From Bacteroidota bacterium (GTDB lineage Bacteria > Bacteroidota > Bacteroidia > B-17B0 > Aurantibacillaceae): a stretch of 64,000 bases of DNA. The translations under genes and the position numbers were made by a program. Under the pieces are notes generated by a model. The model did no database searches. It saw only the letters and a list, made by a program, of their open reading frames with translations, and was not told the origin of the DNA. Where the stretch lies: positions 62,001 to 126,000 of the forward strand of contig JAUXTT010000036.1 in assembly GCA_030684395.1 (NCBI GenBank), written 5' to 3'. Positions 21,906-63,881 of the stretch are shown one piece after another. How positions within the stretch are numbered: position 1 is the first letter of the stretch; each line of letters begins with the position of its first letter.

Positions 21906-22057
21906 AACACAGAGATTACTGAGGATACAGAGGTTCACAGAGATTTTTTTTTAATTCCCGAAATGTAAATATTTGTAAGGCTTGTTTCTTGCACGTTACG
22001 GTCCTTTCCAATTCAAAAAACTCTGTGTAACTCCTTAAACTCTGCGCGCTCTGTGTT
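21906..22057. mobile_element. 152-bp MITE-like element with 37-base terminal inverted repeats
   Basis: The left end (21906-21942) begins AACACAGAG and ends TTCACAGAG; the right end (22021-22057) begins CTCTGTGTAA and ends CTCTGTGTT. Both ends are 37 bases and are imperfect inverted copies. They have the same length and boundary words as the ends that enclose the GxxExxY gene at 63400-63881. The 78-base centre has no coding potential, so this looks like a deletion derivative or a non-autonomous form. It fills the gap between prfA and the convergent phosphoesterase. Confidence 0.75.
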
Positions 22058-45890: not shown

Positions 45891-46583
45891 TTGAATTCAA
45901 TCATTCTTTTACATGGAGCCATTGGCTCATCTGATCAGTTAAAACCTTTGTCTGATGCACTTTCCGCAGCCGGTAAGAACGTTTATACATTTAACTTTTC
46001 AGGTCATGGAAAAATGTCTTTTAAATTTAAAGGCTTTGGAATAGAAGTATTTGCTGAAGAACTACATGACTTCGTTATTTCCAAAGGACTTAACAAACCT
46101 GATGTTTTTGGGTATAGCATGGGAGGTTTCGTTGCTTTATACCTGGCGAGCCAAAACCAAAGCTTATTAGGAAAGATCATTACACTCGGAACTAAGTTTG
46201 CCTGGAATCCTGAAATTTCAGCAAAAGAAGCTGCCATGCTGAATGCAGAAAAAATAGAAGAAAAGATCCCGAAGTTTGCAGATGCCTTAAAACAACGTCA
46301 CAGTGAAGAAAACTGGAAACAACTGCTTTCCAAAACTGCAGAGATGATGCATGCATTGGGTAAAAATAATATACTTACTGAAGACAAGCTGAAAGAAATC
46401 CAAAACGATGTATTGATTGGCTTGGCCGATAAAGATAACATGGTAAGTCTGGAAGAAACCACTTCCGTTTACAAAACACTTCCAAACGCATCTATGTATA
46501 TGCTACCAAATAGCAAACATCCAATTGAACAAATCAATACAGGTATACTAAGCAAGATCATTCTGGACTTTATTGCTATTTAA
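45891..46583 (+). CDS. Alpha/beta hydrolase
   Basis: The 230-residue enzyme begins MNSIILLHGAIGSSDQLKPL from a TTG at 45891. The nucleophile is in VFGYSMGGFVALYLA, with the catalytic His in LPNSKHPIEQI and an Asp in GLADKDNM. An in-frame GTG at 45861 exists but lies inside the repeat element and adds no family sequence, so the TTG is preferred. The ester or thioester substrate is unknown. The last base triplet (TAA) is part of a 37-base element end (46582-46618), so the 3' end of this gene may have been modified by an insertion. Confidence 0.82.
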   Translation: MNSIILLHGAIGSSDQLKPLSDALSAAGKNVYTFNFSGHGKMSFKFKGFGIEVFAEELHDFVISKGLNKPDVFGYSMGGFVALYLASQNQSLLGKIITLGTKFAWNPEISAKEAAMLNAEKIEEKIPKFADALKQRHSEENWKQLLSKTAEMMHALGKNNILTEDKLKEIQNDVLIGLADKDNMVSLEETTSVYKTLPNASMYMLPNSKHPIEQINTGILSKIILDFIAI

Positions 46584-46618
46584 CACAGAGCACACCGAGT
46601 TATTGGTGTTGCACAGAG
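46582..46618. mobile_element. Solo 37-base end of the AACACAGAG element family
   Basis: The 37 bases start AACACAGAG and end GCACAGAG, the same length and boundary words as the ends at 21906, 22021, 63400 and 63845. No second end is seen within the 200-base gap. It begins in the TAA stop of the hydrolase gene. Confidence 0.65.
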
Positions 46619-63399: not shown

Positions 63400-63881
63400 A
63401 ACACAGAGAACACTGAGTATGCAGAGTTTCACAGAGACGCATTATAATGACCTTAGTCATCAGATAATTGAAGCTTGCATTGAAGTTCATAAAGAATTGG
63501 GTCCAGGTTTGATGGAATCTGTTTATGAGGTATGCTTAGTTTCAGTTTTGAAAAAAAAAGGATTGTTTGTTCAAAAACAGGTTCTTCTTCCAGTTTATTT
63601 TAAGGGAGAGAAACTTCAAAAAGAATTTGTGATTGATCTTCTCATTGAAAACAAAATAATTCTTGAACTTAAATCCGTAGAATCTATTTTGCCTGTTCAT
63701 GAAGCACAATTAGTCACCTACCTAAAATTAGCTGACATGAGATTAGGTTTATTGATAAACTTTCACGTTCCACTTTTAACCCAGGGTATAAAGAGAAAAA
63801 TTAATGACATTTTAAGTAACGAGTTTGAAAATAAAATTTAAAACCTCTGTGCAACTCATAAGACTCTGAGCACTCTGTGTT
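63400..63881 (+). mobile_element. 482-bp inverted-repeat unit carrying a GxxExxY gene
   Basis: The left end (63400-63436) starts AACACAGAG and ends TTCACAGAG; the right end (63845-63881) is its inverted copy, matching at 28 of 37 positions by hand count. The enclosed gene begins inside the left end and stops 4 bases before the right end. The unit lies between lpdA and hemH. No transposase is seen. Confidence 0.75.
63419..63841 (+). CDS. GxxExxY protein
   Basis: The 140-residue protein has the name-giving motif in GPGLMESVYEVCL (Gly-x2-Glu-x2-Tyr), then QKQVLLPVYFKGEKLQKEF, VIDLLIENKIILELKSVESI and HEAQLVTYLKLADMRLGLLI. The Asp in FVIDLL and the Glu/Lys in ILELKSV resemble the PD-(D/E)xK nuclease core, so a nuclease-like role is suggested for this family. 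The start ATG is in the left terminal repeat, which therefore encodes the first residues (MQSFTETHYND). No function is established. Confidence 0.88.
   Translation: MQSFTETHYNDLSHQIIEACIEVHKELGPGLMESVYEVCLVSVLKKKGLFVQKQVLLPVYFKGEKLQKEFVIDLLIENKIILELKSVESILPVHEAQLVTYLKLADMRLGLLINFHVPLLTQGIKRKINDILSNEFENKI

Follow-up and report, generated by a model that had tools for sequence, protein, structure and literature searches.

A GxxExxY nuclease-family gene between inverted arrays of a seven-nucleotide word: a candidate class of minimal mobile-like units

Why should a single small gene lie between two matching inverted repeats, and could such a unit be mobile through a protein that acts on its own ends? 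The window analysed here, a stretch of 64,000 nucleotides from a Bacteroidota bacterium of the Aurantibacillaceae (contig JAUXTT010000036.1, positions 62,001 to 126,000), raises this question at positions 63400–63881, a unit of exactly 482 bp that sits between lpdA and hemH and not within 23S rRNA. The unit comprises a left array (63400–63436, + strand), a GxxExxY gene encoding 140 amino acids (63419–63841, +) and an inverted right array of the same type (63845–63881, −). Both 37-base ends are in turn built as arrays, with some four copies of the 7-nt word CACAGAG separated by short spacers; the left end reads AACACAGAGAACACTGAGTATGCAGAGTTTCACAGAG, with an outer terminus of TTC followed by AACACAGAG, and the reverse of the right end reads AACACAGAGTGCTCAGAGTCTTATGAGTTGCACAGAG. 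The two ends are identical at 27 of 37 positions; the next-best 37-mers of the window, which are unrelated, reach only 20–23. The ATG of the gene lies within the left array, so part of the array is translated (MQSFTETHY), and the stop codon lies three bases ahead of the right array. An apparently separate repeat, the palindrome CCCGATAGCTATCGGG, interrupts or abuts the word array at two loci (L003, right end; L167, left flank).

Profile searches with the window protein returned TIGR04256 (E 4.5e-43, 146.3 bits against a curated cut-off of 35) and PF13366 (PDDEXK_3; E 7.2e-42, 142.9 bits against a cut-off of 22); these GxxExxY/PDDEXK_3 families were the only matches, with no Y1/HUH (TnpA_REP) and no DDE transposase among them. 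The protein carries the motifs G30xxE33xxY36, D73, E83xK85 and Q97xxxY101, of which E83 is nearly invariant in alignment A1 and the other residues are invariant. Motifs in the order E, D, ExK, QxxxY characterize RecB/Cas4-type PD-(D/E)xK nucleases, and the predicted catalytic residues of the window protein are intact. A sequence search of solved structures gave nothing. The best solved-structure match to an AlphaFold2 model (mean pLDDT 92.7) was Cas4 SSO0001 (4ic1; Z 9.0 over 103 residues), with lambda-type exonucleases next (Foldseek), and the modelled fold is Cas4/lambda-exonuclease-like. Family matches, catalytic residues and modelled fold all agree with the proposal, made earlier from the sequence, that the protein is PD-(D/E)xK-like. 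The gene is hardly ever carried by phages (0), viral contigs (1) or plasmids (7), which counts against a mobile unit. One gene-carrying “plasmid”, Bacteroides finegoldii NZ_OY725952.1 (L456), also bears radA and thrA and resembles a piece of a chromosome.

The same ends recur without the gene, as had been claimed: in the window as a 152-bp pair (left array 21906–21942, +; right array 22021–22057, −) and as a solo array with no partner found nearby (46582–46618, +), and genome-wide at 60 sites of the pattern RACACAGAGN{20,25}CACAGAG, compared with 0 for a reversed-pattern control. Most of the seemingly solo ends elsewhere in the genome proved on inspection to have a partner within about 200 bp. 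Of the six GxxExxY genes in the genome, one intact gene and one broken copy have ends of the window type. The words around the six genes differ (CACAGAG, CACGGAG/CACAAAG-like, CATATAAG and ACGAATA). Some units have mixed arms, one CACAGAG and one CATATAAG, and a gene-less CATATAAG unit is nested in a CACAGAG unit (loci among L024, L036 and L015).

The layout is widespread. GxxExxY genes scored above the family cut-off in 42 of 60 relatives, and a genome-collection scan gave 80 named loci in Bacteroidota, Acidobacteriota, Chloroflexota, Cyanobacteria, Planctomycetota, Proteobacteria, Verrucomicrobiota and Cloacimonadota, plus one archaeal record, Methanothrix, at whose locus the aligner used found no clear repeat. 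Inverted repeats were scored by aligning flank against flank and comparing the score with a null distribution; across 208 loci from many phyla, 79% exceeded the 95th percentile of the null and 64% the 99th (p 1e-67), and 9% of control ORFs exceeded the 95th. About a fifth of the 208 loci show no clear inverted repeat, which counts against the mobile-unit reading. From the outside of a GxxExxY array inwards, the spacers between words tend to measure 1, 2 and 3 nt, and the outer terminus commonly resembles TTTYAC. The proposal that the gene and its 37-base inverted ends form one 482-bp unit is borne out by the coordinates and match of the window copy as well as by this survey. With a probability of roughly 0.6, we read the window feature as belonging to a large class of minimal mobile-like units in which a single small gene lies between inverted arrays of a clade-specific 7-nt word and encodes a protein that would act on its own arrays.

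Site comparisons, made with one genome per species, revealed polymorphic sites. The two neighbours of a Prevotella unit, which we take from their sequence to be the methylmalonyl-CoA mutase gene pair, adjoin directly, with the unit absent, in at least 78 of the species listed (hand count); the unit is also present at this site in other Bacteroidales, so gain and loss are not distinguishable there. At a second Prevotella site, at least eight of the species checked have no unit, one species has a GxxExxY unit, and another has a four-helix-bundle gene between AAATGAT arrays. Comparison of the lpdA–hemH junctions showed an unrelated, CACTAAG-ended unit in another genus of the family, the protein of which is 49% identical to that of the window and 72% identical to a copy elsewhere in the window genome; the gene does not occupy a single shared place, without paired ends, in all relatives. 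An exact empty site was sought in the window's own genus and not obtained (74% identity). Only 18 of 171 protein pairs with >60% identity share a neighbour gene, a lower bound because some loci have short flanks. Which unit occupies the lpdA–hemH, mutase and deoC–aldehyde dehydrogenase intergenic sites differs repeatedly from lineage to lineage, a pattern suggestive of hot spots or of unit replacement. None of 19 curated paired units (0/19) showed a target-site duplication, which counts against the mobile-unit reading; the outer flanks are rich in T on the left and in A on the right, and we take this bias to belong to the repeat itself. Of the earlier suggestion of a small mobile or gene-carrying unit, dispersed gene-less copies and polymorphic sites support one part, and target-site duplication and transposition as such are the part left without support.

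Gene-less arrays were followed in Dolichospermum, where one genome contains 97 arrays against 0 in the control. One Dolichospermum site occurs in four states: with a CGCAGAG-ended gene, with a CGCAAAG-ended gene, with a gene in the opposite orientation that has four-word ends, and with the gene gone and the arms collapsed. At the gene-less arrays the word changes in concert, from CGCAGAG to CGCAAAG in every copy of an array, and the number of words per locus varies from 2 to 4, a pattern for which overwriting from other arrays accounts more readily than point mutation does. A synteny scan of Dolichospermum revealed mostly unrelated insertions. Most solo arrays stay in place across species, so current mobility may be low. 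A further Dolichospermum repeat, with ends GGCGTTGCTGAATTGAGG, holds CGCAAAG arrays inside and is inserted beside an array in one species (L217, L222, L226, L239, L245 and the G069 copy of L225).

The conservation of array positions between Dolichospermum species would also fit a role of the arrays as binding sites of a chromosome-organizing or regulatory protein, either IHF/HU-like or the encoded protein; selection for regulation would have spread and maintained these sites, and the gene would be an autoregulated factor and not part of a mobile unit. Paired opposite-strand arrays of three tandem repeats (consensus TCTCCGTS) in Geobacter metallireducens are, in the accessible text of PMC2700814, predicted binding sites of a global regulator. 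We consider this explanation unlikely, since the same intergenic site is empty in so many Prevotella species or holds unrelated units in different lineages, gene copies within one genome have different words, and gene-less arrays switch word type in concert.

The same layout encloses a second protein family. Among the same relatives, 65% of 74 loci with PF05635 four-helix-bundle genes exceeded the 95th percentile of the null (p 7e-18). Each of these genes has its own 7-nt tandem word in inverted arrays (L038–L042, L387–L455; G216 site in L386); the notion that four-helix-bundle genes lack such ends was rejected when arrays of other words were found. Their arms have a strict period of 7 (self-match 0.61 at lag 7 and 0.60 at lag 14), and the self-match of GxxExxY arms peaks at 8–10. 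The four-helix proteins are not nucleases, and their occurrence in units of this layout counts against the mobile-unit reading and indicates that a nuclease may not be common to all such units.

Two unrelated families in one layout could also mean that the arrays themselves are the selfish part, tandem words that host enzymes expand and spread through slippage and gene conversion, and that GxxExxY or four-helix genes are enclosed passengers. Solo arrays that change word number and type without a gene fit this, as do orphan arrays that persist when the cognate gene is missing: genome G012 has 72 CACAGAG-type arrays, and its sole detected GxxExxY gene is CACATAG-ended, an observation that counts against the mobile-unit reading. 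Against it stands the scarcity of arrays in genomes that lack the gene. The 43 relatives with any GxxExxY match contain 471 CRCARAG arrays and the 17 without contain 5 (p 1e-4); the arrays are nearly confined to GxxExxY-carrying genomes, and ends are thus not scattered at random with respect to the gene. The co-variation of word and protein, which extends across phyla, makes passengers rather improbable as well. In 128 units with clear arms, arm similarity tracks protein identity (Mantel rho 0.376, permutation maximum 0.107), compared with a rho of 0.207 for the neighbouring DNA used as control flanks; across phyla the effect is weaker but present (0.215 against 0.200). This proves joint inheritance of ends and gene, and it only suggests that the protein may specifically recognize its own word. 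For four-helix units the correlation is weak (rho 0.09, p 0.046).

Least likely of the explanations considered is that the arms are retained for the hairpins they form in RNA (terminators, mRNA protectors or RNase III sites), with an RNA-processing nuclease beside them and incidental spread: gene-less units are indeed more stably folded than shuffled sequence (z −4.0 to −9.6), spacer bases agree between arms at 0.54 within a unit versus 0.37 between units (an agreement partly built in because arms were picked by alignment), and RNase III cuts S23-coding intervening sequences at such a stem (PMC4990558), but in the window's family the variable arm positions match less within units than between them (0.16 vs 0.35), so pairing is not maintained there, and word i of one arm is nearly as similar to word j of the other (0.92) as to word i (0.94).

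The reading as minimal mobile-like units can be put as a mechanism. The GxxExxY protein would recognize its own arrays and cut or nick there, and the ensuing repair or recombination would copy the unit or its arrays into new intergenic places, often directly after a stop codon and with no target-site duplication. On this view, internal deletion would have produced the gene-less copies, which would then be moved or overwritten in trans. The sequence-only reading suggested that the protein may act on its own ends; the word in the ends does go with the protein, and it is array cleavage, like transposition of the unit, that we infer. The model predicts that each protein acts on its cognate word but not on the words of other proteins.

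A wider version is tentative, and we hold it to be possible but rather less than probable: a broad class of minimal selfish units, each a single small gene between inverted 7-nt-word arrays, encoding either a Cas4-like GxxExxY nuclease (spacing 8–10) or an S23 four-helix protein (period 7), might spread by array-directed recombination without target-site duplication, and the 23S rRNA intervening sequences of Coxiella, Leptospira and others might be members that landed in rRNA. The four-helix S23 family is encoded by such intervening sequences, the mobility of which was once proposed and the origin of which is described as unclear (PMC4990558). Our link between them and the intergenic four-helix units is a proposal. 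The GxxExxY and four-helix S23 families are both very common in bacteria, and neither has a known role; a tie of both to dispersed word arrays, if true, would explain these families and many unexplained intergenic repeats, and possibly also how the rRNA intervening sequences arose.

No paper tying GxxExxY to repeats was found in the literature searched, from which most subscription journals were missing. The S23-coding 23S rRNA intervening sequences share with it a single small gene between inverted repeats (PMC4990558), and the window unit differs from them in its nuclease-family protein, its lpdA–hemH location and a word spacing of 8–10 instead of the period of 7 seen in S23-family arrays. 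The Geobacter metallireducens sites resemble the window arrays in having three tandem CACGGAGA-like words paired on opposite strands; they are read as IHF/HU sites, and no gene is linked to them in the accessible text (PMC2700814). Cas4 and lambda exonuclease (RecB-like) share the fold and the ordered motifs of the window protein, which at 140 aa differs from Cas4 in having no cas neighbours and only two cysteines, leaving no room for the four-cysteine Fe–S cluster of Cas4. MITEs and DDE insertion sequences likewise have terminal inverted repeats, internal-deletion derivatives and nested copies; unlike them, the window unit has word-built ends, no DDE transposase and no target-site duplication that could be found. 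REPIN/RAYT systems, as the accessible parts of PMC3116915 and PMC8266576 describe them, also combine one chromosomal single-gene locus framed by repeats with many dispersed gene-less intergenic copies, in several families per genome. Their protein is a Y1/HUH transposase (TnpA_REP) and their ends are short palindromes, whereas the window unit combines a PD-(D/E)xK protein with inverted arrays of a 7-nt word, and looks like a kind of minimal mobile element so far undescribed.
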